Shown: piece by piece, positions 1,132 to 41,425 of the stretch
Layout: each line of letters begins with the position of its first letter
Numbering within the stretch: the stretch's first letter is position 1
NCBI GenBank assembly: GCA_947034895.1
Contig: OX344765.1
Span: 17,675,001 to 17,739,000, forward strand
Source of the DNA: Rhytidiadelphus loreus
Lineage: Eukaryota; Streptophyta; Bryopsida; Hypnales; Hylocomiaceae
Length of the DNA: 64,000 nt
Direction of reading: 5' to 3'
Notes under the pieces: generated by a model
The model's input: the letters and a program-made list of their open reading frames with translations, nothing else
Told to the model about the DNA's origin: nothing
Database searches by the model: none
Position numbers and translations under genes: made by a program

Positions 1132-1160
1132 CAAGGTTGCTATATTGTGAGCCTGCGAGC
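1132..1160 (+). repeat. Left terminal inverted repeat of element 1
   Basis: It begins CAAGGTTGCTATATTGTGAG and ends CCTGCGAGC. It matches the reverse complement of 14759-14787 at 25 of 29 positions. Further GTGAGC copies follow to about 1196, then the TATGACCGCGG-type subterminal motif. Confidence 0.85.
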
Positions 1161-4100
1161 GTGAGCCTGTGAGCGGGATCTTGTGAGCCTGTGAGCGTAT
1201 GACCGTACATTTTTTAGATTTGGAAATTAAAAAAGTACCTATGACCGCGGTTTTCATTTCATTTTTTTTTTTCAATTTTTAAAATTAATTTTCTTTTTAT
1301 TTATGTGTAGGCAATCCTAAGACCGTGGACTCTGAAATAATGATTTAAATTTGGACTTTACAGAAACAATTTCACTGTACAATGCATGATGGGAAGAAGA
1401 AATGGTAATATATTTTTTTGCTTCAAAAGGCATTCAAAAAATTTGTAGCGAAGTTTATTGTGCATCCTTAATATAATTAGGATTCTGGATTTTTGAAAAA
1501 TATACTAAATTCATCAATCGCCTTTGTAGTGCATTCGGTCCATATTGAGGTATTTATTGATGGTGAAAAAGGCCTTGTTCATTCAAATAATGTCCTTTCA
1601 ATGTTTGTCCACAAATATAGGAGTAGCTTATTAAACGAGATAGAAAATATATTAGAAGCTTTAAAATATAGATGGACTTAGAACCTTTGTTGATAATTTT
1701 GAATTCTAAAATGACAAAACTACTTCACATTTCAACAACTGTACAATAGTATGATTACAATATCATATATAACCGATACGGTTTTAAAAATAAAAGCCTA
1801 CAAAAAAAGAAGTTAAGGTAAAAGAAACTGTAATGCTTGGAAGACATAAAACAACATATAATAATAGATAGAATGAAATCCAATAATTGCAATGTAATAA
1901 ACAGAAGAATCAAGAAGACGATGTAGACATAGACTGAGAGTGGGCACTACTATCAGTCGATGATGTATCCATCTCTAATTCTACAGCTTCCACATCTAAA
2001 AACTTCAAAACTGTTGGGTCTAAAGAAGTAGACTTCTTCTGTGCAGGAAAGTCTTCTTCAGATGCAAATGTAGATGCTAAGGCCTCTGCATATGATGGCA
2101 ATATGTAGGACTTCTCCGGGCTTGAAAAAAAAGAGGGTAAAGTGAAAAAAGGCTGTTGAGTTGCCTTGTTTGAAATCATGCTGTAAAACCAAAGAAGTGT
2201 TAGAACAAATTTCAAAATCACATTGATAATAAACAAAATGTGTAATATATGTGCAAAATGACAAAAGCATTAGAATTAGACATATAATTTGGCAAATAAT
2301 GTTAGATGAGGATAGACTTACTCACATGTGAAACGAGATTTCTTGACAATGCATGGAAGTTGAACTTCCACTGTATCATCATCATCGTCAAGCAATACGG
2401 CAGCTACGGTTGGTTTAGGAACAGGTGGAATTGTCCGAATCATCGGAGCCAAAACTGCATTGAAGAGGGCTTTGTCACCCTCAAGTGCAACGATGTGCCT
2501 ACCCAAGTTTCGACAAGCATGGATAGAGGCCCCTAGTACCAAGTACAACACAGATGAAATTAGAAAGCAGACCTCTATAAGGGTAAAAGAGAAAGAAAAA
2601 AAAATTATAGAGAAGAATGATTTAAGTCGTCTAATATTACCTGTACCAGCATTGCAATCCATAATAACATCATTTGGAAATGAACACCGTTGTATCAACA
2701 TTTGGAGTAATCTAGGATCCTTCTCTCGTGCCCCTCTCCATGGCTTGGAACTCTAGTCCATAGTCATAGTCTCTAAATTTGTGAAATTGTGAAGTACATC
2801 ATTAGCCGCAACATCCAAATTCAGTTTTGCTAAACTTGGTGGGCATGGCTGGAATTGAAACTTGGAAGATTCAACTCCAGGCAACTTCCTGACGAACAAC
2901 ATAATTCCAAACCGCTGTGTCTGCAAAAACGCAGATGTAGAACCATAGAATAAATTCAAAGAAGTGTAAGAGATTGAGGGACTATAATGAAATATAAAAA
3001 AAGACATGTCAATGAAATTGAAAAAGGAACATTAATTTATAGTAACACTTGGTTTGACAACAAAACGTCTATAAGAAATTAAAAACATCCAAAATTCAAA
3101 TGATAAAGGAATGTACCGTTCTTCCTGGCGCAACAGGTGAGGCCAAATGTAACGTGTTCGTTCCCCACCAATCCTTCATCAGCTCAAAAGAGTAAGTAAT
3201 ACCGTATTGTACAACGGTAGCCTTTGTAATGGCCCTCAAGGGATAGATAATGATAAGAGCTCCATCATCATGTACATGACCATCACTGAACTCAAAAAAC
3301 AATTGAAGCCAGTCCGGATCCTCTGCGTTCCACTTGGGAATGCTAGTCGGAGGCATCGATAAACCAAGGACAGGCAATCCCTCTGGCATGTCTCCAATAA
3401 TGAGGTCTACACGAGGCTTATTACACTTAACTCCTTTGAACAGGCGTTCCTTGTCCCCCTTGTACTGCAACAGAATTACAATGGTAAGTACAACAAACAA
3501 ACAAATCTAAATGAATGGGAAAAAAATGTATGAGGACAAACAAGAGAAAACGCTCACCATGTCTATGAACTTCAAAATGTCATGGTACACCTGGGGGAGA
3601 GGATCAGCCAACACACTTGCAAGAGAATGGTTAATGATGAATTCATTCATAGATATGTCTGAGTCGGTCAAAAATTCTATAGGTGATGGACCGTGCAACA
3701 TGCCTTCTTCACTAAGTGAAGCAAAATCTGCATCTCGTTTGGTGCCACGTGAACCCGAACCTCGATGCTGTGAGACCTCATCTTTAGTCGACGAAACTGG
3801 AATTGGATCTTTTGCCTTCTTCTCCTTGTTCTTCTTCGCCTTTGCAGCCTCCACCAATTTCAAGGTCCGTTTCGTCAATCTTTCCTTAGCCTTCTCCACT
3901 GCTTTGGCATTTTTCAATGCTACCTTCTTATCTGCCTCCTCTCTTTTCTTCATGGCTTTGGCTTTAGCATCGTCGTCAAGGCCAGCAAATTCTTCATTGT
4001 CCACTTCCTTGCTCTGTGAATTTGTAGAAAGCTTTAGCTGCTGCTCAGTCTCTGGCGTGAACTCAGGTGGGCAATCCAAATACCAAGCACCCGTCTTCAA

Positions 4101-5809
4101 GTGCAAACTGGTCCACAACTGTAATTGCGACGAAGAAAACATGCAATGCTCAGATGAAGCATCCACCCACGTGGAGAGAAAAACTGGTAAGTCATGTTTC
4201 GCAATGGCTCCTTTTGCTAGCAACTCAAACTTGAAATACCTGTAGCAAGAACCAAAAGATATCAACTACAAGATATCAAGTTCCACGTGCAACTATTCAA
4301 TCAATTACTAAAACAAAACCCTGTGTGAGATAGTATACCAGAAAGAATTAGTAATAAGTACTCATATAAAGAGCATTATATAACTCCACCTACAATCATT
4401 GTATCCTTAGCGCAGAGTCCATTCAATAAGACCAGATTTTAGTCATCCAAACACACATACGAAGATCATTACCTAATTCCACTTATAATCAGTTTGCCCT
4501 TGGCGTCGAGGGCATTCAATAAAATCAGATTTAGTCATCGTCATTAATATGAATAGAATATAGAAATGTCGGATGATGCTGAGGAAAGAATTATCAAGAC
4601 TGAACAACAAGTTACGGAATCTGCTATAAACTAACAACAAGCAATTTTGTCATTACCTGAAAAGTACACGTTTCACGACCAAGTCCGTGCCTTTGCGTTT
4701 CCTAAAGTCATCTGACTTCTTAAAACCGTCATCACCCTTGGAATCCCCCTTAGAATTCCCCTTGAAATGCCCCAAAAAAGCTTTGTCCCAAACACGAACC
4801 CTCCACCCCTCAAGATAATCTGGAAAAGAGTCCGGCTCTTTCGGAGTATCCATATTCAATCGCAATTGGTCCTTCTTCACTATCTCATCAAACATTTCAG
4901 ACCCCAACTCTTCAATCTGTTAACCAAATATAAATAAGTTATCAAATAAGAAGAAATTATTTTCGCGCAACAAAGAATCATGCAAGATTAAAACAGAATA
5001 CCAAAAATGATGAGATAGAGTTGAAATACATACCGTAGCATACCAGCATGCTTTAGCCAAGAAAGACTTCAACTCATTCTCTCCAACTGGCTTCGGTGGA
5101 AACCAGAGTGACTTCCTTGTTTTAGTTGAGGTATTCCACCACTGAAGCCACCGGACTTTTTGCACACTATTGGCATTGGAAGTTGCAATCAATTGCAACT
5201 TCTCTAATGTCATTTCTGGAGTGATATTCTCAGTCCAGTGGCGCTCAATCTGTAGCACTCAAAAATGTACTTAAAAAAACAAAAAATTGAAAGAAAGACC
5301 CAGAAATGGAAGTGACCAAGCAATAACAAGATGTAGTCAAAATGAACATACTTCTTCAAGGAAACCGCTCCCAAGCTGGAGATTGGCCACTGCTGTCAAT
5401 TTGTACAACTTTTGAGTCAAATGAGTTGTTGCTTCCTTCGTAGTAACCTTCATGGTAGCCAAAATGGCTTCTGGGGACTGATCTTCTTCATCAGATTCTT
5501 CTTTGTACTTTCGAACTGCAGCATCAGCTGTGGCAGATATCTCATACTACAGAAAAAACATAAAATAAGTAGTGTTTCGTAATTTGATGCAGAAAACATA
5601 AAAGTCTGGATTTGTGACAAATATGAAATATTACCCGAAAAATGAAGGCAGTGAAGACTTCTACGGACATGGAGTACCAACTTTTCCGTGAGTTCTGGGT
5701 GCATTGGGCCATCTCCGAGGTATTCAAGTGCTCCGCAAACATATGTAATGGCAGCACTCCATACTTCTAGACACGGTACAACGTGTGAACCAAATTCGTT
5801 TTGATAAAC

Positions 5810-6392
5810 CACGGGGAGGACACTCCCCATGTTTTAGCAAACTACGTGCGGCGGAAAAAGTAAAACAAGTAATACACCTTAAAATTTAATTTCTTTTTCA
5901 AAAAAAAAATTATGGATAGATTTTACTACTTTATAAGTTTATGTTTTGAATTATTGGTATTTTTTTGTGCTAATAGTAATTAGTTATAAATTTTTGAAGA
6001 AAAAAGATACACTGTAAAGCTGAAAATAACTTTCACACCTCTATATTATATAAGAAAAAAAAATTGAAAAATGAAAAAAAAATTATATAGAATAGCTTTC
6101 TATTGAAAGTTTATTTTGGTTGAATATTGATGCAATAGTCATCTTCATGTGAGCTCTATAAATATTTTAGTTGGAGAACATGCCATTTTAGTTCATTTTT
6201 CAACCCTTTCTAGACAATATATCTTATGTTATTTGGAATTGAATTTTTTGTCAATAGAAACCTTTAGTCATTGTTAAACAAAGCTCAAAATTTTAGAATG
6301 AAATTATAGTTTATTCAAGGTGAATTACATGAATTACTTTTTCCACCGCCGCACGTAGGTACCCCAAATGTAGTGAGAGTGTCCTCCCCTAG
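5810..6392. mobile_element. hAT-like MITE inserted in exon 4 of copy A
   Basis: A 583-bp insertion flanked by an 8-bp duplication, TGATAAAC (5802-5809 and 6393-6400). The ends are inverted repeats: CACGGGGAGGACACTC on the left against CTAGGGGAGGACACTC on the right. A second matched block, CTACGTGCGGCGG...AAAAAGTAA, lies about 30 bp further in. No coding capacity. The 8-bp duplication and CA/CT-GGGG ends suggest a non-autonomous hAT element. Removing it rejoins an exon that aligns with exon 4 of copies B and C (FIKTNLVHTLYRV). Confidence 0.75.
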
Positions 6393-7429
6393 TGATAAAC
6401 GAATTCTCTGTTTATCTGCAAGGCAAAATGATAAAGATTAATAAATATGAAGAAACTTAAATAAACCATTCGAAAAGAGAAATAAGTAATAAATCAAATG
6501 ATGAACTTACTGGTTGATATCGTGCATGGCATGCATGACTTGGGTAACTTTTCCTTTTGTATCCAAAATAATAGAATCAACCGAGATGTGCCAATCTTGA
6601 TCGCTGGCATGTCGTTTGGAAATGTAGGAAGACCACGCCAACAGCCTATGGTTCCCATCACAAACAAAAAACTTCAAAGATTGAAAACTCTCCAACCCAG
6701 GAGTTGCATTGAGGTAGGCATTGAAGACGTCATTTTCAGCCTTCCAGATTGGCCCCCAAGTCTCCATTTCAGCATCAGAGACTTCCTCCATTTCTCCTTG
6801 CTCGTTCGTGATTGATACATAAAATACATTGGATCCATCTCGGTATCCATGTACAAACTCCTACTCAAGTTTTGTAAGATCGCATTGCAGAGCTGAACGG
6901 ATCATAGGCATAGTCTTTAAACGACATAAGGGGATTTTCAAACGAGAGATTGAATTCGGTTTCAATCTCAAAGCAGAAATTGCAGCAACCGAATTGACTT
7001 TCTGTGCCTTCCGGAAGTCGTCCTCTGTAGTAAGATCCGTATCTTTGTTCTCAACATCTACCACAGAGGAAGTCTTCTCTTCCACAACGTGTCCATCAAT
7101 GTCCTCTCCCTCCTTACTCAAAGATTGAAAATCAAGAGATTTACCTTCCTCATCCTATCACACACAAGCAATATTTACATTAAATGATTACTTATACTTG
7201 AAGGTGTCATTTGACTAGAAAACACCGAAAAATTTATTATCACTAAATCCAATAGTTAAAGAATAGGATAGCTCTGCAAGTGTTGTTATATGGTCCCATC
7301 GGTGCCGAGGCTACAAAATTTAATGCCAAATTTCGCAGTGAAGAGGTCCCCTAGGCGCCGAGGCTTCCAGGATGGAGGCCGCAGCTTGGGTACACCGGGT
7401 CTCCTCGTGCCTTCGCCGTGCACTGGCAT

Positions 7430-8095
7430 GGGCCCCTCGGCGCCGAGGCTTGGAGAGGGGAGCCCTCAGCCCGACGTCGTCGTGCTATCGCCACGCACCG
7501 GCAGGTTGCCTCGTGACGTCGCCACGCACTGGCAGGGTCCCCTCGTTACGTCGCCACGCACTGGCTGGGTCCCCTCGGTGCCGAGGCTTGGAGAGGGGAG
7601 CCCTCAGCCCGACGTCGTCCTACTGTCGACCCGCACTAGCAGGGTCCCCTCATGACGTCACCACGCATTGGACGGGTCCCCTCGTTACGTCGCCACACAC
7701 TGGCTGGGTCCCATCGGCGCCGAGGCTTGGAGAGGAGAGCCCTCAGCCCGACGTCGTCTTGCTGTCGACCCGCACTAGCAGGGTCCCCTCGTGACGTCGC
7801 CACGCATTGGACGGGTCCCCTCGGCGCCGAGGCTTGGAGAGGGGAGCCCTCAGCCCGACGACGTCCTGCTGTCGACCCGCACTAGCAGGGTCCCCTCGTG
7901 ACGTCGCCACACACTGGTTGGGTCCCCTCAGCACCGAGGCTTGGAGAGGGGAGCCCTCAGCCCGACGACGTCCTGTTGTCGACCCGCACTAGCAGGGTCC
8001 CCTCGTGACGTCGCCACGCACTGGACGGGTCCCCTCAACGCCGAGGCTTGGAGAGGGGAGCCCTCAGCCCGACGACGTCTGTGGAGTTCGATCTT
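7430..8095. repeat. GC-rich minisatellite in intron 1 of copy A (107-bp unit)
   Basis: Anchor CCGAGGCTTGGAGAGG(G/A)GAGC recurs at 7443, 7581, 7720, 7827, 7934 and 8041, giving spacings of 138, 139, 107, 107 and 107 bp. The longer spacings contain an extra copy of a roughly 32-bp sub-unit with GACGTCGCCACGCA. Each unit carries the palindrome CTCGGCGCCGAG or a variant. It is very GC-rich in an AT-rich region, and long open frames through it are by-products of the repeat. A degenerate start of the array reaches back to about 7290. Confidence 0.9.
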
Positions 8096-8413
8096 GGTCG
8101 AAATTCGATGTGTGAGTTCCGAGTGCGGGATTCGTGAAGGTTCCTTGGCCCTTATTCAGGATTCCCTTGGACCCATTGCGAGACAAGCTTCCCTCGAATC
8201 TCACAGGCCGCGGAGATTCCTGTAGAGGCAAGGTTTGATACAAAGCCAACAAGTAAGACAGTAAGACAACAATAAATTCCTCACCTGTAATTCCGAAGGG
8301 GGGATCTCGGCCATGTGATCTTGAAGTCCGTGATCCTCATTGCTTCCACTTGCATCACCGTCGCCTCGTGTCTCTCCAAGTGCCGCACTCCTCGTCGTTG
8401 GCCTCCTTGCCAT

Positions 8414-10326
8414 TGCTCTTCTACCCTAAAGAGGAAACCAAACCCTAGATTAGTTTGAAGTCACGGTGGAGTTCTACAAACGGAGAAGGTTTAGTCTTCA
8501 AGAATGAGAAAGAGTTTCGAAAATGTTTTGGCACTCACAACGCAAGGTCGATGATCCAGTAGTCTAAAACGGAAACAACATGCAACCTGCTTCTAAAGTA
8601 CCGCAAGAGAGACCGTAAGGGTACCGCAAGAGAGAACAGAGCACGCGGGAAATGGGAGAGGCGGGGAGACTGCCGGTCAAAGTTCGGCGAAGTTTCCTGG
8701 ATAGTCCAAAGCGGGCCGGGATCCTACGAGTTCCGTGGACAGAGCCCTAATATAATACTGAGGTCTGGAATATAAAGTAATATTACATATTTGTAAAGAA
8801 AAGCATCTAGTGGTATACTTACACTTGAATCTGACATGTGTCCTTCACTTGATAGCTCCTCCGTATGCTTCTTCTTAATCAGTTCTTCCTGTATGCTTCT
8901 TTCATTTTTGACAATAACATCTGCATTGACATGATTGACTATGCAACTCGGCTTGGGAGGGGTCTCTTTTTTTACTACAACACTCTTCTCTCATGCAAAC
9001 TGTGCCCGTTGCAATTCCTTTCAGGAAGAAAAGAAAAGCTTTCTTTTCTTCTTCCGCTTTCGCAGATTGTACTGGGGACCACTCTCTCTTGTCCCCTTTT
9101 CAGCATGCATGGGACTAAAGGATCATACTACTCAAAAACTCTATAAAATGGATAGACATAGGAGATGCAATAGAAGTGCAATATCTAATAAGCACTTGTG
9201 ATTGATTTCAACGTATAAGCTGAACTCAAAATTCTACTATGTCATGATTCTACAAAAATGGCTAGACATGAGCTCCATCCATCATTTTATACTGTATCTT
9301 AAAATATTTTGTGTGGAAATTTAAATTTGAATGTTTGCTTCAGTACTCTTTGAAATAATGTCTTCAAATATTTGAAGGATCCTAAGTCATAACTATCAAG
9401 TACTCTATTATGGGCACAGAATAGAGAAAAATTCATTGATTAAATACTGTTTTGTACTCGCTAGAAATTTAATTAAAAAATGTGGTTTACAAAATAGAGA
9501 AATTAGGTTTAACTCCAATTAGATCGTCGTAATTCAATTCAATTTAATTACCCCTTGAATCCTGACTTTTAGACTTGGGTGGGCATACAACTCTCTGAAC
9601 CATGCCTTGATCTAGTGCTATAATCTATGCCACACACATGGCTTACAGTTAATTAAATCATGGTACAATAGCATAAAATATTGATATAGTGTGGATTGTC
9701 AAGAAATTAGCATGGAGCAAACAGATTTCACTATTTTGTCTACATAACCGTTATTTTTTTTTTTGAATTGTTTTTAGATCTCCTAATTCATCATGGTAAT
9801 TTACGCTATCCAAATCTTTTAAACCTACAAAAATTTAATGTAGATCTCCATGGATCCGTTTTATAGTCCCTCCAGAAAGAGTCTTCATTATATGTGTATG
9901 TTAGAATTAATAGAAATTCAGGGTACATGGATTGCTATAAGGACAAGAATCAGAGTTTTTCAACTTTGGCATATTCTTAAATTTTGCCCAGTCATAATGG
10001 ATCCGAGATCTACAACAGAGAAATCTTGCTACATTAGTTGCATTACATTTGTATTTATGAATTTGTTAAGAAAAACGGCTTTCTCAGGGAATTAAATTTG
10101 GATAGTCAATTAAATAGGAGATATTTATATTTGAAATAGTAGTTCACATTTAATATTAGTTATCGCATATTTTTCACACTACAATGTACCTTCATTGTTT
10201 CCATGTAATGTTTCATCATCTGCTTATATATCATACTGATGTTTATTCAATCCATCTCTAATCTCTAACCTTTACTAACTTAGTCATCGTAAACATTTCA
10301 TTGTTGATGTGCCTCCTTTTTACTCA
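8414..10326. promoter_or_regulatory. Head-to-head intergenic region of element 1
   Basis: This 1.9-kb gap lies between the start codons of copy A (minus) and the transposase (plus), so it must hold both promoters. The part next to copy A (8550-8740) is GC-rich with a short direct repeat (GTACCGCAAGAGAGA). The part next to the transposase is AT-rich. A TATATA at 10225-10230 lies about 100 bp before the transposase ATG. No gene is visible. Confidence 0.4.
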
Positions 10327-13300
10327 ATGGCGTCCATTCGAGCGGATGGCCATGAGATTCCAGTAGTTCTTCCTCTTGGGCCAGATGGGTATGTTGTAGT
10401 GTCCTTACACCTTCTTCATGTCCGATTTGGTTTCATCCAATCTACTGTCTATGTTGAAGAAGAGGTCATGTCTGATTCTGGGCGCTTGAAGGAGTATGTC
10501 CACATGCTTAAGTTAGAACTCCAAGACGGTCATGTGTGGCACCTTCGGCAAGGTCGCTATAGAGCTTATGGGCTGTTGTCTCCCGTTTTAGATGCTGCTA
10601 CACAAATTCTACTGCGCCAGTCAGACCCTTCTACCGTGAACAAGCCCCCTGTTCAGCATACTACTAGTACTTCTACAGTTCGTGATCATGTTACGATTGC
10701 TAGTACACCAACTCTACTTACACGTATCAAGCAAGAGGTCTTGAACCCCATCATAGATCTATCTAGTGAATCAGAGGGAGAGTCTCCTAGTCAGCCAGTT
10801 ATTCAAGCATCTCTGCCTACTAGAGTCCCAGATGATGTCTTCAGGACATCTTCCGGTATATACCAAACGCCAACAAGTAGTCCTTCTTTGTCAATGCATT
10901 CTCGCCCACCAACATATCCAACTAATATAACTACAATTAGTATTGTTGGTTGCCTGCGCAGTCTTGGATCAATTCGGAAGTCTCGAAACGAAATTGCTGC
11001 ATTAGACTACAATTCATTGATCCACCGAGAAGTGCAGTATCTTCCTCCTGACTTTGACGGAGATGTGATATTTGAGTTGCCTTCACTTCGTGTTTCTTCT
11101 TCATCATCTTCTGGTGGAAATCTACAAGGGATGGATAAAAAATACGATGGTCATCCTTGGTGTCGGACCATGACATCCAATATCCACAACCAGAATGGTT
11201 TGAAGTTTAGGAAATCCTCCTGTGCAGGCCATCTTGTATGTAACAATTCTGAATGTGATTATTTGAAGCGATTCTCAAAGCGCAACGAGACGGAGTGGTG
11301 TGGTTATACTAACGTTCCATTCTATGTTGGCGCTAATCCTCCAAAGGATTCTTGTGTTCTCTGCAAGATGTGCAAATGTCCGCCACATTGCATTAGTATT
11401 TGTGATGCTAGAATATATTACATCCACAGTGATACTGCTCTAATGACCCGAGCGTGCATTCACTTAGGTAATCATATGCATCCTGTAGCTTCTGGTGTAT
11501 GCAGAGAGGCTGTAGATACTATTTCAGGTCTCATTGCATGTGAGGTTGCCAAAACACCGATTGCAACTAACTCAGCCATTGCCATGGCAGCAAGTAAGCA
11601 ATTTCTAGATAATCACCTCATATACAACGGTGAAGGTCCTAAAGAGATGTTGCAGGGGAAGTTATTAGAGGATGTCATGGATAGGTTCCAGAGACTAAGT
11701 TCACCTAACATTCATAACATTATCACTTCGTTTCGTAGCACAGGCAAAAATGGTGTTATAGATAGTATCATGAATATGAAACGGAATTTGAAGTTCGAAT
11801 ACATTCATGATAGTGTGTTCCGTGGACAAGGAAAAGAGAAGGTATACTTATTCAAGATGTTGGTAGAAGGGCCTGGTAGTGGAGTGGACTTAGTAAGGCG
11901 CATGCAACCGAGTGGAGACCTCGAGAATGCATGGCTCATGTTCGACCACGTCAAGCGTGTGAAGGATTGGACGACCATGGCATGCCATGTTTATGACACA
12001 GATTGTAGAAAGGTGATGACAATTGCTGTCTGCGACATGCAATCTGAGGACACCGAGGTTCAAAGCATCATGTGGAGGTTACTGAATGATGTCATGAAAC
12101 GCAATGGTGTGCCAAATCCGAACTTCAAGGGCTTCATGGCTGATAGTGCACAAGCAAATTGGAATGCCGTCCGCATTGTGTATGGTTCAGGGGATTCCAA
12201 AATTGAGATGGTGAACCGTGAGCGAACTTGTCTCTTGCATTGGAGTACGTCATTGCATCGCCATACACAGAAGCTCATCAAACCGGATTTACAACATCAA
12301 CATACTCGTCTTTGCAAGCAATATAAAGATGCAAAGACTATGGAGGAAGCTGAGACGCGGTACCTGGCAATTCGTTCTTGGTGGCTTTCATCTGGCCCAG
12401 CCTCAGAAGATGCTCTGCGTGAATTGGAGTTGTAGCTTGCATTTTGGCACTTTCGGTATCGCCAGTGGGGTGGCTTCATGCAAATGGTATTTTAATCAAT
12501 CTTTGTTTTTTGTATTATATCTTCCGTTGAGTTGCACTTGCATTTTATATTGCCTTCTGTAGAGCAAAACTTTTATATTCTGTCTTACATAAGGATTTAA
12601 ACAACATAAATTGAATTTTTATCAGTATACGAAGTAGGTCACTTTGCCCTCGGCGCCGAGGGGAGACTTTGATCTCAATCCCGAAGGTAGACTTTGATTT
12701 CAATCATGAGGGCAACTCTATCCTCGGCTCCGAGGAGAGATTTTGACCTCGGTTGTGTGGAGTGACTTTGTCCTTGACTCCAAGGGGAGTCTCTACCTTG
12801 TATCGGTGAAATTAGACTTGTGGTGGTATGCCTTTATCTGAAGTGTGTCTTTGAATTTCTTTTTGATTTCATTTTGACCTTAAGGATACATTTGTTTTTC
12901 TTCAGGACTTGAACCTTGACGAGATGGCACACATGCCATCATGCAACTTATCCGAAACAGTCCATAATAGATGGTTGCAACAATCGGGTAATCGTGGTAA
13001 TGATTTGTTCGCGGCCACATGTGATGACTGCATTCGATCGTTTATGCAAATGACAAATTATCGAGCTTTCTTAAACGGCACAACATCAAGGTCAGGGCCG
13101 TCAAAGGAAGAGTTGAAGTTGAGAGGCGGTAGACGTAGTGGGGACCCAAAGAAGATTGCAGAGGCGTTGAATGGACTTCCTGGCTTAAGTGACGTTGGAA
13201 CACGTATTCCACATTTGGAAGGTGAAGAGGTGTTTGACAGTAGTAAATGCAAGCTTGACATTCCTATTGGTTCTGATGGTGATTCTCATCATCCGGACAA

Positions 13301-14312
13301 GGTCAACTTCTCCTAGCCACGTGTGCAAAGGCGATCTACTTCTACATCCACCGTTCCTTGCACTCAAGTAGACATGCCGATTACCTCGACGCATGTACCA
13401 CACGTCACAACTGCAATGGAGACTGACTGTGACACTTCGCAATGGCATATTGCAAGACTGTCTCACAAATCTAGCTGCAAATGTCATGCCCAACAAAGGG
13501 GTTCAAATATCCGTTGCGTCACCAAAATTGCAAAGGGATCTAAAGGCACTCCAGCTCCAACTTATCGTGGTCGCAAAAAACAATATGGTGGAAATAAGGA
13601 GATCATGACTGACTTTTGGTTCTGTCTTGACGATATTGACCGATGTGTACGAGGCTCTAAGCGTGCTTGGGTAATTGACTGGCCTCAAGTACCTGACGTT
13701 TGGCCTATACTAATTGATACAAGTTTGACCCGCCAAGAAACACTATTGTTACAGAAAGCCGGCTTTCAACTCCAGGAACGACCTCCTATGTCCCCTCGAC
13801 GTTTGTTCAAAATGTCAAATGTTTTCACAGCGGTCCTTTACGATCAACCTGACCCTCAGCATGCGGATACATATCCATCAACTCGAAGAAGCAAGGCGAT
13901 TCGACGTATTGCAAACGCTCCCACTATAGAGCATCGCAATAAATGGGAAAGTGTTGGTAATGTCAAAGGAATGATCTTAGGGGTAACTATGCTTCCCTTC
14001 CCTGGACTTGGAGCAATAGTCTCTCTTCAATCTGGAATAGAACCCTCACAAAAGGTTTATAGAATCACACTTGGCATGTACTCCGAGTGTACTTGTCCTG
14101 ATTTTGTAGACATGGCCGTTTCAGCAATTGGAGGCCGCCATCAGTACGTGAATTGTAAGCATCTTTACTATTTGTTCCGTTATTTTTGCAAAATGAATTT
14201 GATGGAGGATAAGTTTATACATTCTCCAAGCTTTAGCTTCAATGAAGTGAAGTTCCTTCTTATTAGGGTTGGTATCATCAAGACTTCAACTGAGAATCTT
14301 GAACATGCCTAG
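10327..14312 (+). pseudogene. MULE transposase 1 (GCM-like finger, DDE, SWIM), two in-frame TAGs
   Basis: Transposase of element 1, expected to cut and paste the element in the nucleus. Two exons, 10327-12486 and 12906-14312, with a GT-AG intron in phase 0. The start is the ATG of MASIRADGHE. Order of parts: an N-terminal domain (about 1-90) conserved with transposase 2 but unknown to me; a SUMO-interaction-like PIIDLSSESE near residue 140; a Cys/His-rich GCM/WRKY-like region (DGHPWCRTM, SCAGHLVCNNSECDY, a run of CxxC pairs, HLGNHMHP); a MULE core with D in LMFDHVKRV, FKGFMADSAQANW and the CxxH-type TCLLHW; and in exon 2 a SWIM-like CTCPDF...NCKH finger. Interruptions are TAG at 12433-12435, where transposase 2 has Trp, and TAG at 13314-13316, where transposase 2 has CAG. 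No frameshift was seen, so this is the best preserved of the three transposases. Confidence 0.8.
12640..12805. repeat. Short GC-rich repeats in the transposase 1 intron
   Basis: Three to five copies of a roughly 34-bp unit (GACTTTG-(A/C)-CTC...GAGGGGAGA). Two contain the palindromes CTCGGCGCCGAG and CTCGGCTCCGAG. The first palindrome is the same as in the minisatellite of copy A at 7435 and 7821, linking the two arrays inside one element. Confidence 0.55.
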
Positions 14313-14758
14313 AAGCCACAATTCTTTGGAGTGATTGACCTTTGAGAGTGGAAGAATTTAGACTGAAATTAAATATGTAGCTGAAGACCTATCTATTTCC
14401 AATTGGACAAGTATTGTATTTATCGACATATTTAATATAGCCTGTTTTTACTTTCCATTTCGGTTTACTATACTTCAATAATTTGCTTCTATTGTATACT
14501 CTTGAAGAGCATTTTCAAAAGTAATGCAAATCCAAAATCCCACACAAATTATTCATAAGCACAATTATAGGTTGATATTCTTAGTTTCCGCGGTTATGGG
14601 TCCTTATTCATTGTTCCACGGTAATAGGTTTTCAATTTACTATAAATTGGAAAAAATAATAAAACTTTTAAAATATATTTTCTATTTTTAGAAAACAAAT
14701 TTTCTTTAATTTAAAAAAAAAAAATTCAAATCTTAATGCTCGCAGAATCCTGCTCACA

Positions 14759-14787
14759 GCTCGCAGGCTCACAATCTAGCATCGCTG
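14759..14787 (-). repeat. Right terminal inverted repeat of element 1
   Basis: Reads ...TCTAGCATCGCTG at the outer edge. Its reverse complement begins CAGCGATGCTAGATTGTGAG. Subterminal ACCGCGG and ACCGTGG motifs lie inward at about 14590 and 14617. Confidence 0.85.
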
Positions 14788-14797
14788 TGTTACATTT
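14788..14797. repeat. Target-site duplication, right copy (element 1)
   Basis: TGTTACATTT, identical to 1122-1131. It marks the exact right end of the element. Confidence 0.85.
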
Positions 14798-21290: not shown

Positions 21291-22848
21291 AGATGAATAG
21301 TTTGTAGGCATAGGAAATCATGAGGAGTTTTGCGAGTTTGTACGTTATTTTCTTAACTTTAGGAAGGATGACAAAAAATATGGAAAAAAAGAGATTATAA
21401 AGAGTTGTAGAAGTTGATAGTTTCTTTGATTAGGGCAAAAAAAAATATAATAAAAAGTTGTTAGAAAAAAATATGGGGAGAAGATGAAATAGATTTAGTT
21501 TTTTTATTCTTTTAGTTCATTGTTTTGATCTTTTTTTATATTATTTTAGAATTTGATGTTATAGATGTTGTATAATATAATATATTTTAATTTTAATTTC
21601 TTGTATTGTATTGTGTATTTTGTAAGTTCTTCATTGTAATTCTATTGTCTATGACATTTGTTTTAGAACACTATGACTCTATGAGTACTAATGTTATCTA
21701 TACAAAGTAATTTTGAACTTCTCTATCTAAGCATATGTCAAATTCTTTAATTTGACATTGTAGTTTTTGAGAAGGCTAGGTGTACAAATGTATTCTATCA
21801 TGGATGATTTCAAAATTGTCTACCTCACTATAATTATGTCAAACTATTTATTTAGATATTTTAGTTAAGTACTTATTATAAATGGTTCTAGTTTCCCATC
21901 CAAAATCCCTCCTTTCAACGTCCTTCACTACTATTTTTTTCCTCCAATTTCTTGTACTTGTACAAATTTCTTTATTCTTCCAGCAATTTATGGTCTCAAT
22001 TTTTCGAATTGTCTCAATTTAATGGACTCTTCTATATACTAAATTTAGGAAGATGATTAAAATGAGAATCCACATTGTCTCAATTTAATGAATATGGCCT
22101 TGTATCAATAGTTAGTGAGATAATTTAGAAATTAGTTCGTCAATTATAATTGGCTAATTAATAGTAAGTCGGATTAGAAGAAGATTTAGGCAAAATTAAG
22201 AGAGGAAATTAGGTTAGAACTTCCTAAGTAGGGTTAGAGAATTAAACATAGCAATTAGTAGTAACCAAGTTAGAATTAGTCGTTAATCTTAGGTCGATAA
22301 TTAGTAGTAAGCTGGATTAGAAGAAAATTAAGAAAGGAAATTAGGATTAGGACACCTTAAGTAAGGTAAGAACGATAACCATAAGCAATTACTAGTAAGA
22401 GGTGAGAATTAGTTGTTAACTGTAGGCCAATAATTAATAGTGAGCACAGTTAGAAGAACCTTAGAAGGAATCAAGGAAGGGATTAGGATAGGATAAAATA
22501 CCCTAAAATCGAATTAGGATAGTGAAGCAAGGATTAGTTAGAAGTAGAACACTTGCAGGATACTTAGAAGATAGATCACTCACAAAGTCAGACGTTAGGG
22601 TTAACCACGATCCAAAAGTAATAGTAGTAGAGGAAAGGAGGTACCTCAGGATACCTTTGAGATCTTTTTAGAAATAGTTAGTAGAGATTAGAGCTTAGGT
22701 CTTTGAGCATAGGCTAGAACTAGTAAGGAGTAGAAATATTGAAGCTAGCTTCTAGTTACCACAAGGATTGAGCCACTTGCAACTCCTAGGCCAGATAGGT
22801 AGCAAGGGTAGGAGGAAGAAGTCTTAAGGCTAACAAAACAAGTTAATT
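21291..22848. other. AT-rich spacer leading to the retroelement
   Basis: Very AT-rich 3' flank of the DUF7869-like gene to about 22100, then the degenerate repeats listed separately, then 350 bp of leader before the first retroelement ORF. I looked for a 5' LTR here by comparison with 27600-28800 and did not find one. No convincing tRNA primer-binding site was seen. Confidence 0.4.
22140..22500. repeat. Degenerate AG-rich tandem repeat (about 130-bp unit, three copies)
   Basis: Three diverged copies share the order (AT)AATTA(G/A)TAGTAAG, GGATTAGAAGAA, AAATTAGG, ACC(T)TAAGTA and CAATTA(G/C)TAGTAA. Non-coding, upstream of the retroelement ORFs. Confidence 0.5.
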
Positions 22849-23832
22849 ATGAAGGAAGACGAGCCAGAACCTTGCTTTGAGTTCACACAGCTCAACTTTT
22901 ACGACCGGTTGCGCCGCCGCCCTCGCAAAGCATACCGAGACGACGAGGAAGGACATAGTGACTCCGAAGACAACAAGGAGCTTCCGTTAGAAGACCTGTT
23001 GCTCGGTCTCGACCGCTTGGGCATCTCTTTCGAATACTGGGAACATCTGGCGCAACAATACTTGCTCAGCCCCAACCAGTACACGCCCTGCATCCAGCAA
23101 GCGATCAAGTCGGAGACCTTTGGGGTCTCAAGGGAGGAGATAGCCAAATGCCTCTCGTTCTACTGGGCGGTGGTGCTAGCCACTTGGAAGTTTGAAAGCG
23201 CGTTTGTCAAAACGTGCTTCGACGCCTAGCATCCCGCCTACCCGACTTTCAGACCTCTCACAGAGGTCCCTCACCTCGTCATCCGATATGCCGCCCCAAG
23301 CCCACTTGGGGACGACTCGGACCAGTATTTCCGCTTCAACCAGCTAGTTGGGGACTTCGATCGGTTTCTCGACAACCCATACTCACAGTCTGCGGACTTC
23401 CGTGCAAGGCACAACGGAGCCAGCCATCTCACGTTGGAGTGTTGCCGCGGTATCTCCACCATACTGACACCGTCCACCTTGGATACGGCGGATCAACTTC
23501 GATACATCACCGAGTACGCTACCGCTTGTGAACCCTGTCAGGACGCAGAAGACTTCAAAGTCTCCAACTTCCAACTACCTGGGGACGAGGGGATCCATCA
23601 CCCTCGTTACCATCCAATACACTACGAGTACCCTAGCCGTGGGAAGAGGAGCCGTTCCAAACGACTCAAGGACGCGACCTTCTTCACCAACGCAGCCACG
23701 TGGAAGCAGCATTCGTCAGCCACGGCAAGAATCGAGGTTGCACAAGCCCCGTACTTCTTCGAGGTTCGACCGACGGCGGCGGAGATTGTCACCACATTGG
23801 TCTGTGCAGATCAAGTGATAGAGCTAGTCTAG
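22849..23832 (+). pseudogene. Retroelement upstream ORF, unknown function, one TAG
   Basis: One frame of about 328 codons is interrupted only by TAG at 23227-23229. It is acidic at the start (EDNKELPLEDLLLGLD), then globular-looking with several Trp and Tyr, and basic near the end (RGKRSRSKRLKD). It lies 62 bp before the gag ATG. I do not recognise a domain. It is not a chromovirus envelope or a known movement-type protein as far as I can see. The clean frame on both sides of the stop indicates it was coding. Confidence 0.55.
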
Positions 23833-23894
23833 GACTAGAGCTTGGACCACCAGTTGGCCAACTTTTATTACTGTAAACACTTTTTTCTATATAT

Positions 23895-25271
23895 ATGTCC
23901 TCGCTTGGCATATTATCAGGCCATCTGAGTTCGATGCCACCAAAAGTCTCCACCACACTACAATCTGGTAGGGTGCTACGACCAAAGGGAGGGGGAGGAA
24001 GTTCAGCCCGACCACCATCGCCGAGTTCCCCTGCCTCATCAACACACAAAGGGGCTAGTTCTTTTGACTCTTTCGAGCGAGTCAGCTCACCTAATCCATC
24101 AGAAGAGATGGGCGACCGCAAAGCCAGGATGCCACCTATGGCTCCAGGAGCACCGGAGGTGGGAGAAGAACCACCTGCCATACCCGAGGTAGACCCTATG
24201 ATGTTGCCACGGGGTCTGCCTATCTTAGTACCTCATGGGCTAAGAAAGATCTCCGTCCCCCATCACTTCTCTGGATCTCGGGACGACGATCCAGCTATCC
24301 ACATGGAGCGGTTTGAAGAGATTCTCATCTCTAACCTCGTCACCGATCCAGGATATTACTTGATCTGGTTTCCGAATACCTTGACAAGGACCGTCTACTC
24401 TTGGTATCAATCCCACGATGCAGGGGTCTTCACTTCGTGGACACAACTGCAAGCGTCATTCCTACGTTACTTCCGACCAGCGACAGGCCAACAGCAGGTG
24501 TTGTCCGCTCTGACCAGCATCCGACGGGGGGCCACGGAGGACCTCACCTCATATATTCGACGGTTCCAGATAGTCTGCACCCGCTACGTAGGGGGCCTTC
24601 TAAACGACGACACCATACGACACTACTTTATCCAAGGAATCGACTCGGCTTCAACTATCCGGGAGATCTTGTCCCGACGTCCCGTAACCTTGGACGACGC
24701 CATCCGCACTGCGCTAGAGATCGAGATCATTGACAAAGAAAACGAACGAATGATTCGTCGGGAGCACGACCCGATACTAGCCTTCATTCCCATACATCAC
24801 CAAGAGCCCGCCCTAGCACCATATCGCTCGTCTCCCACTCAGCGGGACAACTTACATCTGACCCCCTTGTCTTCGCAGGAACCAATGTTAATGCTAACCG
24901 TGCCTGTTGAACAGATTAGGACGGAAATGCGGCAAGCATCCAATGACATGGCCCAAGCAGTACGCGAACTGACCGAGCAAATGGCATGCCTCATCAAAGG
25001 ACAAGGGCAACAAGCCCCACTCCGATATCATGAATCGAGATCTCATTCCACGGGAGTTTGGTGCAACCACTGCGGCCAGCCCAACCACACGCCCCTATTT
25101 TGCCCCCTGCTCAAGGACAACCCGCCTCGATCACAACCTCGAGGGTCAGGACAACCTTGCCGACACCCTACGCCCAAGCTCAGGTACGTAACAACAATTC
25201 ATTTGATAGGCCCCTCATGTCCTATTGCGCCGTGTGTAAGAGGACACACGGCCCTGGCCAATGTTGGGTAG
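23895..25271 (+). pseudogene. Retroelement gag protein
   Basis: ATG at 23895. After a Pro/Ser-rich N-terminus (about 1-110) comes a retrotransposon-gag domain: PHHFSGSRDDDPAIHMERFE, then WFPNTLTRTVYSWYQS, then LQASFLRYFRP and LTSYIRRFQIVCTRY, the usual helical capsid-type pattern. Near the end is a zinc knuckle, WCNHCGQPNHTPLFC (CxxC...H...C). The frame then loses coding character and the polyprotein continues in another frame (25058 onward), so a frameshift mutation or programmed shift lies between about 25100 and 25200. Confidence 0.7.
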
Positions 25272-27595
25272 AAAACAATGTGGTTTGTGAACGCTGTGGG
25301 GATCACCACCCCACGGTTCGCTACCAAGTCACAGATAGGGTGATTCCGCTAGAATTCCCGAAGGCCGACTACGCCAAACAAGCCCAAGAGAACCTCAAGG
25401 GCGTCCGCTTTACGGAGCCTCACGATACGACCGGTCCGCCAGATATGTATTACGATCGCACCAATCATCGCCAAACCCAGGCTGCACCACCCGCCGTCCA
25501 AACCAACCAAGGGGTTGTCCCATTAGGTCCAACCCCCACCACCCAGGATGTTAGGTTTGTTATTGTGTCTAACCCAACTAAAACCAACGAATTTCAGAAT
25601 ACGCTTTTCGTAGCTGTAGACACCTTGGAGACCGAGGCCGTCTGCAAGTCCCTACCTGCCCTGGTGGTCACTCGAGGAGGGGCGAAGACCGGCCCTCCTC
25701 CACCTGAACCAGAAATAGTTAGCTCGCCGGATTCTAGCTCGCAAAGTAATATGCATTTGCACTCGTCCCAAGATTCCCCTTAGTTCTCTGACCTACAGAG
25801 CACTTTGAAGGAGACTGCCAAGGAGGTACGATTCCAAGAGAATTTGCCAACTTCGACCGAGATGGATGAGAATGAGTTCCAGTTTGTTCAAACTGGAACT
25901 CCATTCCATCCAACCAGCCCACAATTACGCTCACGGCCAAAGAAGGGTAGTAACCCTTCTCAGCCATACAATCTGTGGGAGGACCTGGCCAAGGTAAAAG
26001 CAAATATATCCTTTGGGCAATTGATCAACACCGCCCCCACTCTACGCAAGCAATTGAAGGAAGGAGCCACCATCCCTCGAGGTTCCAAGGTAGTTGGCCC
26101 AGTTAATCAAGTGGGGTCACTTCTATTTCGGGGGGACCCAAGTCCCGACGTCAAGGAATCAGAACCCTTGACGGGAGAACCCAAACTAGGCCTAAAAGAA
26201 CCTAGGGAGAGCTTCGAGCCTGTTGAGATAGAGGTAGAGATCGTCGACAAGGTCATACCAAAGACGCTAGTGGATGATGGAAGCGGTGTCAACATCATGC
26301 CCGCTTTCACCATGCGCAAATTAGGTCTAGAAATCATGCACCCCTCGTTGGTCACTCTCAAATGTGCAGATCAGAGATCAGTCCCAACCCTGGGACGAAT
26401 CAAGGACCTCAGAGTTCAAACCGGAGGAGTAGATTACACACTCACCTTTGAGGTCCTCCAACTCGAAGAAGAAGCCAGCACCTCATACCCTCTACTCCTA
26501 GGTAGGGGCTTCCTCCGCTAGTGTGGAGGCATTGTCAATTGGGCGGAAAAGCGACCCACGTTCACCTACGGTCCCAAGAATGTGAGGACCATGATTGCCA
26601 TAGTCTCCAACACCCCGGCCTTTCTAGGGGTCCAAGAACTGGGACTATCGGCAGTCCAAGCAATCCAAGCCAAGCCCACCGCTAGCTTGAGCCAGCTCAA
26701 GTGCATGGGCCCGGGACTCTACGGGTTCGAAGACGATGGGTTCCTCGAGAGATGGCTCTTAGAGCACCCCTACTCAGGAGACGATGCTTACGTCGTCATG
26801 GAAACGCCAACGGTCTACGTCTTGGAGGGAGACACGGGAGACCCATCTGCCATCGTCCACGCCAACGGCGACCCACCTTCTCCCGATTCCTTCTCCAGCT
26901 TCAGCCCCACGACTCACGTTACGGAAAGTCAAGAACCTACGACGGACATCGAACCGTCATCAGAGATCAGCCCTACCCCGGCCAACAGTCCCAGTTCGGA
27001 AGGCACTCCTCATACGGCACCACCCCCGGGAACACAAGTCGAGACACCTCCTTCCGATTCCATGGAGCTAGTGCCAGCAGTACAAGCTCAGCCATCACGG
27101 GCAACGTGCCCTCTTTGTTGGACGCCATATGAGTTCCAATTTTGTGTCACTTGGTCCGGCCCTCAACGTCTAGTAGAACCACGAACCCCGCCGCCAACAC
27201 AACGAGCATCCGCGACACTCTTCGGGGAGGATCCAAAAGACCACCCTTGGAGTCAATCAATTCAAGCGGCTGACCTTGACCTGGCCACCCGCCCCGTATC
27301 CACGAACCTCGTTGCCGTGAGAGATTTTCCTCCAGGATGCCGACCCCAAGACGATGAGGTTTTAGGCATTTATGACAGCCAGCTGGAGATACCAGTAAAT
27401 CACAGCCCGACGGCGATGGAATGCGTAGAGGCCGCACCGTACAACGTGCGCCGTGCCCCTAGCACGCTGCAAGACGACCTTCGCAATCTAGAGACGATTG
27501 AATTGCCAGGGGAAGTCAACACATCCCATGGACGACCACCTACTCAAGTAATCACTCTGTCATCCATTACCCTCCTCAACACGCTTCTCCACTAG
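25058..27595 (+). pseudogene. Retroelement protease region and C-terminal tail, two TAGs
   Basis: A single frame interrupted only by TAG at 25781-25783 and 26519-26521. It opens with a second Cys/His cluster (SYCAVCKRTHGPGQCW, CERCGDHH) and continues through linker. A retropepsin-like protease domain follows (about 26220-26520): LVDDGSGVNIMP holds the active-site Asp, and YPLLLGRGFLR is the conserved flap/C-terminal motif. The D-D-G-S loop replaces the usual D-T/S-G. After the second TAG, GGIVNWAEKRPTFTYG continues the family pattern seamlessly. A Pro/Ser/Thr-rich tail of about 300 residues follows with no enzyme motif. Confidence 0.65.
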
Positions 27596-35450: not shown

Positions 35451-35696
35451 TGCCTTGACCTTCTTTCCTTGTCAATATGCATTATACTCTTTGACCTTGT
35501 TTTTTAAAGACTAGAACAATTGTTTATCTTGTTTGAAATTGATTTTGGACTTAATTTTTGTTTTATCATAAAGCCAATTCATTGTAGGAGTTTTAATGAA
35601 TAGAAATTCTTAATGTGCAAATGTGCCTCTTTGCTCTTGTCCAATTAGGATTATTTACTTGAACAACACATTTTTAAATTCTTTCATTGGAAACAG

Positions 35697-38600
35697 GCAA
35701 GGCGTGGACGTAGTTCTTCAGTACCCATTGCGCAGCTTGAAAATTTGCCAAGTGCTCATGGAGTAGGACCTTCTGAGCCATTTACTCCGGGAAATACACC
35801 AAAGAAAATCTCTAGTGATGAAAAAGAGGATGAAATTGAGAAAGAAGACGTGGTAAGTTTCTATGATGTCATGGATGCTGCAGACCAAGCAGCAGATGCC
35901 CTTGAGAGCTCAGTAATGAGCCAAGTGAGTGACACTGGGGAGCGTCGTCGTGAGCGATTGGAGAGGGTCATAATGATGGCTAGAAATAGGGATCCGACGA
36001 GACCATTTATGTCTCTTGAGAGTTCCGAAACTGAGTACAGCTCAGACAGTTAGGATTCCATCACTATAGACGGTCCAGAGATGGACTACTGTATGTGTGA
36101 TTGTAGCCAAATTCTGGGTAGACAGGAGGTTGTCATCATTCACATTAGCTCCGACTCGGAGGTGGATGTTGACATTGACTGATCTTAATGACTTGGAATT
36201 ATTTTTTGCTCACAGTTATGTAGACACTTGCATATCTAATACGTATATTTGTTTTATCTTCTTTCCGTGCTATTTTCAAATCACTAATGGTTAAATAATG
36301 CCATGTAATTTCATTTAAAGTCCTTCACTTATTCATCAAAATTCTTGTAGCATGTATTTCATATGGAAAACTTATTATGAACATGAAGATTAACACGGTT
36401 CATTTATTCTTTTTTGTACTACCAGATGGATGCATCACCTTCCATTTTGTCACAAGACGAAACTATATTTGAGACCCAAGTCAACGATGACACCTCCCAA
36501 CCGGACATTGGAGGCGAGGAGGACGAAGAGTTCGTAGAAGAGGATGTGGCAGTAGATGTCTTGGAGCAAGATGATAAAGGCTTGGATGAGGATGACCTAC
36601 GGTCATATCACAAGGTCAATTTAGTGAAGACCATTGCATCTCTGAGGATGAAGCCTGACCATCTCTTTCGACTAAGGGTCCCACTCTGTCGAATGGTGGC
36701 CATGCCTATGGTAAGGCCGACGCTTGCTTGTGACCAAAAATTGCTGGAGTAGGAGTTCAATACAGGGTACCGTGATGGAGCCGCAGTGTTTTATGTGACC
36801 ACAACAAACGAAGCCGGAGAGAGTCTAGCATTCACTGAAGAGGAGATGGACGGATGGGATCCATTGTGGAAAAAGAGAAATGACATTTTCAACGCCGAGG
36901 TTGATGCCGTACCAGAGTTGAGATTTCTCAAGAACTTGAAGTTCTTTGTTTGTGACGGTTCTCACAGGCTCCTTTCTTGGATGAGTTATATCACCAGGAA
37001 ACACTCCAAAGATTGGGAGTGGCATTGTGCTGTGGACTCAATTGTTCTGGATACCAAAGGGAAGACAGAATTGGTCATGCATGTAATGCATGACATCAAC
37101 AAGTGAGTATTTCATTTACTTTTTGTGAAAGCGCTTACAATTTCTTTTTGTATTTTTATTTAGAAATGTTTCATCTGTAGCTAAAACTTGAAATAATAAT
37201 GTTTTTATCAATTCCAGGTCCACAGAGGATTCCCATGTGAAAACAAACCTCGTCTATACTTTATATCGCGTTCAGAAGTACGGACTTCTTCCCATCAAGA
37301 GATTCAATGAGATGCTCAAGCCGTTAGAGCTCAAACAGTGTGATATACCAAAATCAAGGAGGACTTGGTACTCTATGCCCTTGGAGGTCTTCACTACTTT
37401 CGTTTTTCGGGTGAGATACTGTTTGGATCAGAGTACTATAATTCAGTCTTGCTTCTACTTAAGTATAGATATTCTAGTTTTATTTGGACTACATATTGAG
37501 TATTCTGTGCCGATTTTTTTTTTGATTTTTAAATGATTATTATTTTGATTTTCATTCTTATCATTGGTCTTTTACAGCAAGAGATATCACAGGCAATGGA
37601 TGCTGCAGTTCGAAAATACAATGAGACTTCACCAGAGAAGGAAAAGACTCCCTAGGGAGTTGTGCATGCCATGAGAGCAGGTGCAAATGAAAAGACTGGA
37701 AAATTGAATGTGAAGATGATGAAATTGGTCACGGTGGCCAATCCTGCTCATCAGCCGGAATTCCTAGCTGAGGTATGTTTCATTCACACATTTTCATTGG
37801 ATGTCAATTATATTGGATGAAGTTCAAATTATAATTTGTATTGTGGCTATTTATGAGGTAAGTGGAGAAACATTCGAGCGCTAATGAGGTCCCGGAGATG
37901 ACCTTTGAAAAACTTCAAATGGTAGCTACTTGCAACACCACTCCTTTCCACAAGACCAAGTTTCTGAAGTGGTGGAACTCCTCAATGCCTACACGTGATG
38001 TTATACGACTTCCACCGAGGCCCGTATCGGAGACACTACTAGGCCCTTTCTTAAACAGATGCGTGTGGTATGCTGGGGTAAGTGTTTCAAATGAAAATGA
38101 GTTGCATTTGAGATCCTAAGAGTTTGGAATAAATAAAATCATGTACTCTATATATTCTAGTACCACAATATATATATATTGGAATGAACTAATTATTGGA
38201 TTTTATAGATTGAAGACGCAGTTGTTGACTACTTCAACAAAATAGTGTAGCAAGACAACATCAATATCAACATGGCCACTCTACTGAAACCCGAGACGTT
38301 GTCAGACTATTTGGAAGGGTGGAGGAGAAAGATCTGGGACCAAGGCTTCATAGCTCACTTTAGAGGAACGAACTACTTCAAGAAAAATGACAATTTCATG
38401 ACTTTTGAAGGTGGGAGGCAGGTAGTGCGAAGGGTTGTATTCCGGTATGTTTCAGTTTCTTTAAAAGTATTAGATTTTATAAGATAGGAGAATCGTGAAT
38501 TATGCAATATTTATATTTCTTGGAGATATATTTATTTTGAAAATAAATTAGGAATATAAAGGAGGTCAATAATTTGGGGGTCCTTTTGGTACCTCTAAGA

Positions 38601-41401: not shown

Positions 41402-41425
41402 CAACGACGCTAGCATGCGAGCTTA
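41402..41425 (+). repeat. Left terminal inverted repeat of element 2
   Basis: CAACGACGCTAGCATGCGAG followed by CTTA, then further GCGAGC and GTGAG words to about 41465. Pairs with 58383-58407 and resembles the element 1 end. Confidence 0.65.

Follow-up and report, generated by a model that had tools for sequence, protein, structure and literature searches.

A Mutator-like transposon family of the moss Rhytidiadelphus loreus carries a ParB- and methyltransferase-like gene together with a palindromic signal whose centre differs between clades

Here, we have analysed a stretch of 64,000 nucleotides (the window) from Rhytidiadelphus loreus (assembly GCA_947034895.1, contig OX344765.1, positions 17,675,001-17,739,000 of the forward strand) and show that a Mutator-like transposon in it, element A (1132-14787), belongs to a large and recently active family in which a second gene, the cargo, stands head-to-head with the transposase gene. 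The cargo protein is predicted to combine a ParB-like fold with a CcrM-like methyltransferase fold, and the elements contain a recurring palindrome, TCGGNNCCGA. We propose, with a confidence somewhat short of even, that the cargo is an accessory protein by which the element recognises itself, that it follows a logic like that of VANC with other domains, and that it probably acts against silencing.

Element A was defined by its ends and an exact 10-bp target-site duplication. The duplication, TGTTACATTT, is found at 1122-1131 and at 14788-14797 (both on the + strand), and the terminal inverted repeats lie at 1132-1160 on the cargo side (+ strand) and at 14759-14787 on the transposase side (- strand). 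The outermost sequences, CAAGGTTGCTATATTGTGAGCC from 1132 and CAGCGATGCTAGATTGTGAGCC as the reverse complement from 14787, are identical at 18 of 22 positions, and the arms 1138-1160 and 14759-14781 are 96% complementary. Allowing up to three mismatches, the end motif ATTGTGAGCCTGCGAGC was found five times in the window, compared with 0.05 expected in shuffled sequences; four of these matches correspond to the two ends of element A, and the fifth is near the right end of a second element, B (41402-58407). Between the ends of A, the transposase gene (10327-14312, + strand) and the cargo gene (8413-1910, - strand) are arranged start to start. A preliminary description of this DNA had claimed matched inverted repeats and a perfect 10-bp duplication around two divergent genes, one for a transposase and one for a ParB/methyltransferase-like protein, and all of these were located; its 12 cargo exons became 11 coding exons in our model. 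That the transposon systematically carries this cargo is supported by the counts that follow.

The pairing of the two genes was examined in the source genome (407 Mb, 489 contigs). In each genome search the best 150 matches were scored out of a larger number of first-look candidates (1,292-1,297 for the cargo ParB exon and 1,292-1,443 for the transposase). Lower-identity rows were left out of the pairing count (45 of 150 for A-type cargo, 93 of 150 for B-type cargo, 47 of 150 for A-type transposase and 99 of 150 for B-type transposase), and any of the entered rows, comprising 255 cargo and 300 transposase places, could count as a partner. Among the close matches thus retained, a listed transposase was found head-to-head within 25 kb for 85 of the 105 A-type and 41 of the 57 B-type cargo copies; likewise, 86 of the 103 A-type and 36 of the 51 B-type transposases had a listed cargo head-to-head. 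Over all 316 rows, 248 were head-to-head, 8 were in other orientations and 60 had no listed partner, and the last may be real losses or may have partners outside the best-scored matches. Chance pairing was rejected, since only 0.75% of random positions had a head-to-head partner in a control for which contig C2 was set to 88.0 Mb (its true length being 89.9 Mb).

Ten paired elements, E1-E10, were taken from the genome for their apparent intactness and spread. Nine of the 12 elements (A, B and E1-E10) have ends resembling CAGGGTTGCTA on the cargo side and CAACGRYGCTA on the transposase side. An exact target duplication of 9-10 bp is present in A, E1, E2, E5, E7, E9 and E10 and one with a single mismatch in E3 and E4, and none was found for B, E6 and E8. 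All nine elements with such ends and duplication, fetched or in the window, enclose the cargo; no search was aimed at cargo-less copies bearing these ends. Some copies of the family are young, as E1, E2 and E3 are 96.8-98.4% identical in long aligned blocks. Cargo copies also fall into groups with identical scores (e.g. many at 207.7 bits) that point to recent bursts.

Both genes are open in three of the ten fetched elements (E3, E4 and E9), in which the ten modelled cargo exons have no internal stop and the transposase exons are open. The cargo has internal stops in E5, E6, E7, B and C (a cargo fragment in the window), and was not modelled whole in E2, E8 and A. The ratio of non-synonymous to synonymous divergence (dN/dS) was 0.12 for the cargo in three pairs compared over the whole gene for which dS was usable (E9 is a member of two of them), 0.10-0.25 in the cargo methyltransferase exons, and 0.08-0.14 for the transposase between subfamilies, values that are rough because dS was >1 throughout and often saturated. 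Near-identical copies gave 0.34, 0.42 and 1.76, with too few changes to judge. Judging from these codon comparisons, both genes appear to be under purifying selection. A recent capture of the cargo without function was rejected in view of the open copies and the low dN/dS between subfamilies. In A, B and C, the in-frame stops of cargo and transposase are mostly TAG where relatives have Gln; they fit the decay of CAG codons by C-to-T change, and were not counted against a model. We also rejected a recoded genome in which TAG encodes Gln, since other copies have Gln codons at these positions and listed copies also carry TGA stops.

Structure and profile comparisons support a ParB/sulfiredoxin fold in the cargo, as the preliminary description had anticipated. 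The predicted fold match spans ~95 residues at ~13% identity (ParB/Noc CTPases and sulfiredoxin). Searches of Pfam, PHROGs and NCBIfam with the ParB exon returned nothing useful (few weak unrelated matches), and a PDB sequence search with the ParB profile returned one weak unrelated match. The profile search also found the methyltransferase fold that had been proposed as N4/N6-methyltransferase-like. P0001, a hypothetical protein of the moss Ceratodon purpureus and, among 5.8 billion proteins, the sole relative of the full cargo with a name (30% identity, 83% coverage), matches PF01555 at 30.4 bits, above the cut-off of 26.7; the whole cargo B protein alone scores 21.2 bits, under the cut-off, and 5 of 5 cargo pieces match at E up to 1. 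In addition, CcrM (PDB: 6pbd) gives a full-length profile match to the cargo methyltransferase domain (E 2.4e-7), and a CcrM-like fold of the PF01555/CcrM type is supported by these profile matches.

Motif I for binding S-adenosylmethionine (SAM), D[CL]xA[SAG]TGA, is kept in 5 of 5 aligned sequences. The catalytic motif IV, [DNS]PP[YFW], is present in none of 14 sequences, open copies included: the residues aligned with DPPY of CcrM are DMPE, DC[PQH]E, YCQE or DTPF, and the position of the catalytic Asp is Asp in 13 of 14. Since none of the 14 has a canonical DPPY, it is doubtful that the element marks itself by classical methylation, and the earlier suggestion of an active methylase that marks its own DNA was not supported as it stood, though the SAM motif is kept. 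Protection from silencing may still come about through binding. In public data, 628 relatives of the ParB profile were found (120 of them listed), and transposase exon 1 has 60 relatives in public proteins. A viral or prokaryotic home received no support, as scans with a few patterns found no relative in viral contigs or prokaryote genome contigs.

In search of sites to which a ParB-like protein could bind, we counted 10-bp palindromes with at least 4 G+C in each element. In the 181 kb of elements, the palindrome TCGGNNCCGA was counted 90 times, against 0 times in 55 kb of flanks (E6 and E8 being counted up to where the fetched sequence ends). When the main tandem arrays are set aside, there are 52 sites in 13 elements, compared with 0.8 expected from first-order Markov sequences. 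The half-site ranks first in 8 of the 13 elements, second or tied in four and fifth in E5, and only a 2-bp gap between half-sites is enriched (54 cases in nine elements, compared with 0-7 for other gaps). In A, E1-E4 and E10 the top palindrome is TCGGCGCCGA, which in E5 has one copy and shares its rank, and TCGGATCCGA is the top palindrome in B, E6, E7 and E9 and the second in E8; the clade palindrome leads in 10 of 12 elements. Genome-wide, there are 657 copies of GTCGGATCCGAC versus 2 of its reversed sequence, and 436 of CTCGGCGCCGAG versus 8. Of the first 50 GTCGGATCCGAC sites listed, 30 have a listed family gene no more than 20 kb away (2.7% at random), and further search adds one. Since close copies are not independent, an 18-kb element of a third clade (C5:19.98 Mb) was taken as a test of the palindrome. 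It has eight TCGGNNCCGA sites, seven of which are TCGGACCCGA or its complement, and other half-sites (with at least 2 G+C) occur at most twice. This result shows that the half-sites are common to the clades and that the centre is clade-specific.

In A and B, each site falls either within a modelled intron of one of the two genes or a short way upstream of cargo B. Element A has five TCGGNNCCGA sites within 7299-7830 (at 7299, 7437, 7575, 7714 and 7821) and two in the transposase intron (at 12650 and 12724, spanning 12650-12733). In element B, TCGGATCCGA is found in the transposase intron (44509-44518), three times upstream of the cargo (at 50918, 51333 and 51643, spanning 50918-51652) and in a cargo intron (54937-54946). 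Palindromes are partly within tandem arrays in E1-E3, A, E10 and the third clade; the array of A (7397-8079, + strand) is in modelled cargo intron 1. B-type sites are mostly centred in imperfect inverted repeats of ~85 bp, GGGGGTC...GACCCCC (e.g. 51590-51700 of the window), which may represent composite sites for proteins, hairpins at the RNA level or small insertions. Several B-type sites contain TTGACC, which we take to be W-box-like.

From the paired genes, their constraint, the folds and the motif, we infer that the cargo protein, perhaps together with the zinc finger of the transposase, would bind the palindromes, that these would label the DNA as belonging to the element, and that the bound protein would keep the element open to transcription in the face of host silencing. 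By its ParB fold, the protein would load and spread as a clamp. Its methyltransferase domain has most likely retained the binding of SAM or DNA without classical DPPY-type base methylation, as a sensor or an altered enzyme, for which METTL14, a pseudo-enzyme partner, provides a parallel. In a more specific version that we consider unlikely, the element would have a partition-like self-defence: a nucleotide-gated clamp of ParB fold would load at parS-like TCGGNNCCGA sites, spread over the 13-17 kb of the element and shield it from silencing, with the methyltransferase as a DNA/SAM sensor and the clade-specific centres separating rival subfamilies. Several points weigh against self-recognition by the cargo. 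The transposase or a host factor could also be the binder of the palindromes; no DNA-binding domain, the helix-turn-helix (HTH) of ParB included, was identified in the cargo, and the ParB fold by itself is not a sequence-specific DNA binder. E5 has a single palindrome site, and ACCGCGCGGT is commoner than TCGGATCCGA in E8 (7 copies). Furthermore, 20 of the 50 listed GTCGGATCCGAC sites were initially more than 20 kb from a listed family gene (one was later placed), 60 of the 316 pairing rows are without a listed partner, and the ~85-bp inverted repeats of B-type sites are possibly RNA hairpins or small insertions.

It is conceivable that the cargo instead aids transposition, through cutting, end pairing, target choice or replication, with the palindromes as enhancers or as sites of assembly to which the GCM/WRKY-like finger of the transposase possibly binds. 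We regard this as rather unlikely, given that the palindromes are internal and intronic rather than at the ends and that a methyltransferase fold would have no obvious use. The full-length match to CcrM, the match to PF01555, the SAM motif in 5 of 5 sequences and the catalytic Asp in 13 of 14 would agree with an active DNA methylase that marks or protects the element by methylating A or C in its DNA, possibly within the palindrome, and palindromes are typical methylase sites; however, the departure of motif IV from [DNS]PP[YFW] in all 14 sequences, open copies included, makes such an enzyme distinctly unlikely.

A role at the RNA level seems to us very unlikely. Intronic palindromes and inverted repeats would then act as RNA hairpins in splicing, export or as small-RNA decoys, and the cargo would act on RNA in the manner of METTL3/14. 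All sites of A and B in the window indeed occupy modelled introns or the region upstream of cargo B, and many B-type sites fold as hairpins (as seen without a shuffle control), but only the exact palindrome with its 2-bp gap is kept while the stems vary, and A-type sites are in arrays without a long inverted repeat. That the cargo is a captured passenger without function, now decaying, we consider highly improbable: A, B, C and several fetched copies are broken, but open copies exist, dN/dS is low between subfamilies, 628 related ParB exons are found in public data, and the pairing is kept across diverged clades. Self-recognition through the palindromes is the reading that we favour.

The preliminary description had called the transposase that of a Mutator-like element (MULE). 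The terminal repeats, the duplication and a SWIM pattern were found, and the Mutator type of the transposase is supported more weakly. The SWIM zinc-finger pattern, CxCxnCxH, expected after the putative DDE domain, is present in 7 of 7 exon-2 sequences. None of 46 family members matches PF10551, and none of the 58 genomic PF10551 matches is within 3 kb of the 300 listed family transposases. As PF10551, a detection profile and not a biological feature, is unmatched, we call the family Mutator-like and its membership is provisional. Searches with the transposase in Pfam, PHROGs and NCBIfam gave few weak unrelated matches, and a Foldseek search was uninformative. Transposase A has one intron and two in-frame TAG codons. 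Its exon 1 (10327-12486, + strand, the exon end being read from the sequence) has ubiquitin-like, GCM/WRKY-like and putative DDE parts and a TAG at 12433; exon 2 (12906-14312, + strand) has NLSETVHN, the SWIM-type CxCx19CxH and a TAG at 13314. At ~10750-10790 of transposase A and in its counterpart in B, an N-terminal disordered stretch holds PIIDLSSESEGES / PIIELSSESEGKS, presumably SUMO-interaction-like.

The cargo gene of A (1910-8413, - strand, 11 modelled coding exons) is a pseudogene with three TAG, one TAA and an insertion of ~583 bp within an exon; exon borders are GT-AG throughout except for the exon split by the insertion. On the same strand are the ParB-like exon with CDGNHR and one TAG (6511-7154), the motif IV exon with DMPE replacing DPPY (3117-3464), the methyltransferase exon with SAM motif I at its end (2641-2920) and the exon following motif I (2322-2532). 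The insertion (5810-6392) has inverted ends GGGGAGGACACTC and an 8-bp duplication TGATAAAC, and by its appearance we take it to be a hAT-type miniature inverted-repeat transposable element.

Element B confirms that the window holds a second element of the same plan, with the end type and head-to-head order of A and no clear target duplication when one was looked for at its ends. Its transposase (42783-46902, - strand, read 46902-42783) has one TAG and one TAA in frame, and its cargo (52759-57351, + strand) has 10 modelled exons counted from the ParB exon and two in-frame TAG. Compared with A, transposase segments are 48-71% identical and most cargo exons ~33-60%, with one exon at 24% in the frame searched. 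Upstream of cargo B are a 5' exon kept in B-type copies (48137-48328, + strand) and a third open frame or alternative exon (52039-52530, + strand). These frames, or alternative 5' exons, are also found in E6-E9 and at loci L042/L043, with 29-98% conservation in B-type elements; the third open frame has ~35% conservation in the third clade and no Pfam match, and its acidic end, VVIIHISSDSEVDVDID, resembles what we take to be a SUMO-interaction motif. Fragment C (35631-41241, + strand) is a broken, cargo-only copy, 88.6% identical to B over 5.6 kb, with TCGGATCCGA at 38607, and fragment D (62826-64000, - strand) is a transposase piece that runs past the window end. Elsewhere in the window, a 751-aa open frame at 19035-21290 matches PF25273 (DUF7869, E 5.9e-46) and is possibly another transposon gene, and 22834-27595 is the coding region of a Ty3-type long terminal repeat (LTR) retrotransposon with broken frames and a gag match (PF03732).

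Transposons known to carry epigenetic tools of their own are few, and the most familiar cases, with VANC and TET/JBP, concern cytosine methylation. The present family, for which a single genome yields ~1,290 first-look cargo candidates, encodes a ParB/methyltransferase protein of bacterial type that appears to be under selection, together with a matching signal in its DNA that has a clade-specific centre. It opens to testing how a transposon distinguishes itself from both the host and sister families, and offers biochemistry a predicted eukaryotic ParB-fold protein with an apparently re-purposed methyltransferase. Plant ParB-methylase genes may be mentioned in the reviews that Iyer and colleagues devoted to DNA methylation systems of eukaryotes; we found no transposon with a ParB-methyltransferase cargo in the literature searched, which covered few subscription papers. 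In the parts consulted, a review of MULEs (PMC6446971) mentions neither ParB nor methyltransferase, and the relevant text of PMC3710099 is on bacterial systems.

Epigenetic cargo in transposons is, in the relevant texts, already known in kind (PMC12730594, PMC3627910). Fungal DNA transposons carry TET/JBP genes and oomycete HarbingerS and MuDR families carry SET histone methyltransferases; the former are likewise DNA transposons with a gene for an epigenetic enzyme but differ in enzymes and hosts, and the relevant text names no ParB or N4/N6-type methyltransferase (PMC12730594). Giant-virus Mariner elements, as described in the relevant text, likewise join a transposase and a DNA-methyltransferase-type gene in one element, but are Tc1/mariner, have endonucleases alongside in a restriction-modification-like setting, and carry the C5 or Methyltransf_26 type (PMC3627910). 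With CcrM (PDB: 6pbd), the cargo shares a whole-domain profile match and motif I; it differs in the replaced DPPY, the added ParB domain and long middle region, and in being an intron-rich nuclear gene. With bacterial ParB/Noc CTPases and sulfiredoxin, it shares the predicted fold over ~95 residues and a G-x-H-R type motif (GNHR), but identity is ~13% and the DNA-binding HTH of ParB was not identified in the cargo. The sulfiredoxin motif is GCHR, and GNHR is nearer to it than to ParB.

To our knowledge, VANC has neither a ParB fold nor a methyltransferase fold; the moss cargo would differ in having both, the moss motif is palindromic, and anti-silencing in the moss would be a probable rather than an established role. 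According to the relevant text, the short motif to which VANC of Arabidopsis VANDAL binds has a high density in introns and upstream DNA, and it evolves through tandem repetition (PMC5735166). As far as that text goes, the moss family bears a striking resemblance to VANDAL in being a Mutator-like element of a plant in which an accessory gene stands next to the transposase, and in having a family-specific short motif concentrated in non-coding DNA, often in tandem repeats (PMC5735166). What is new here is a palindrome, TCGGNNCCGA, that recurs in the non-coding DNA of the elements with a centre that differs between clades.

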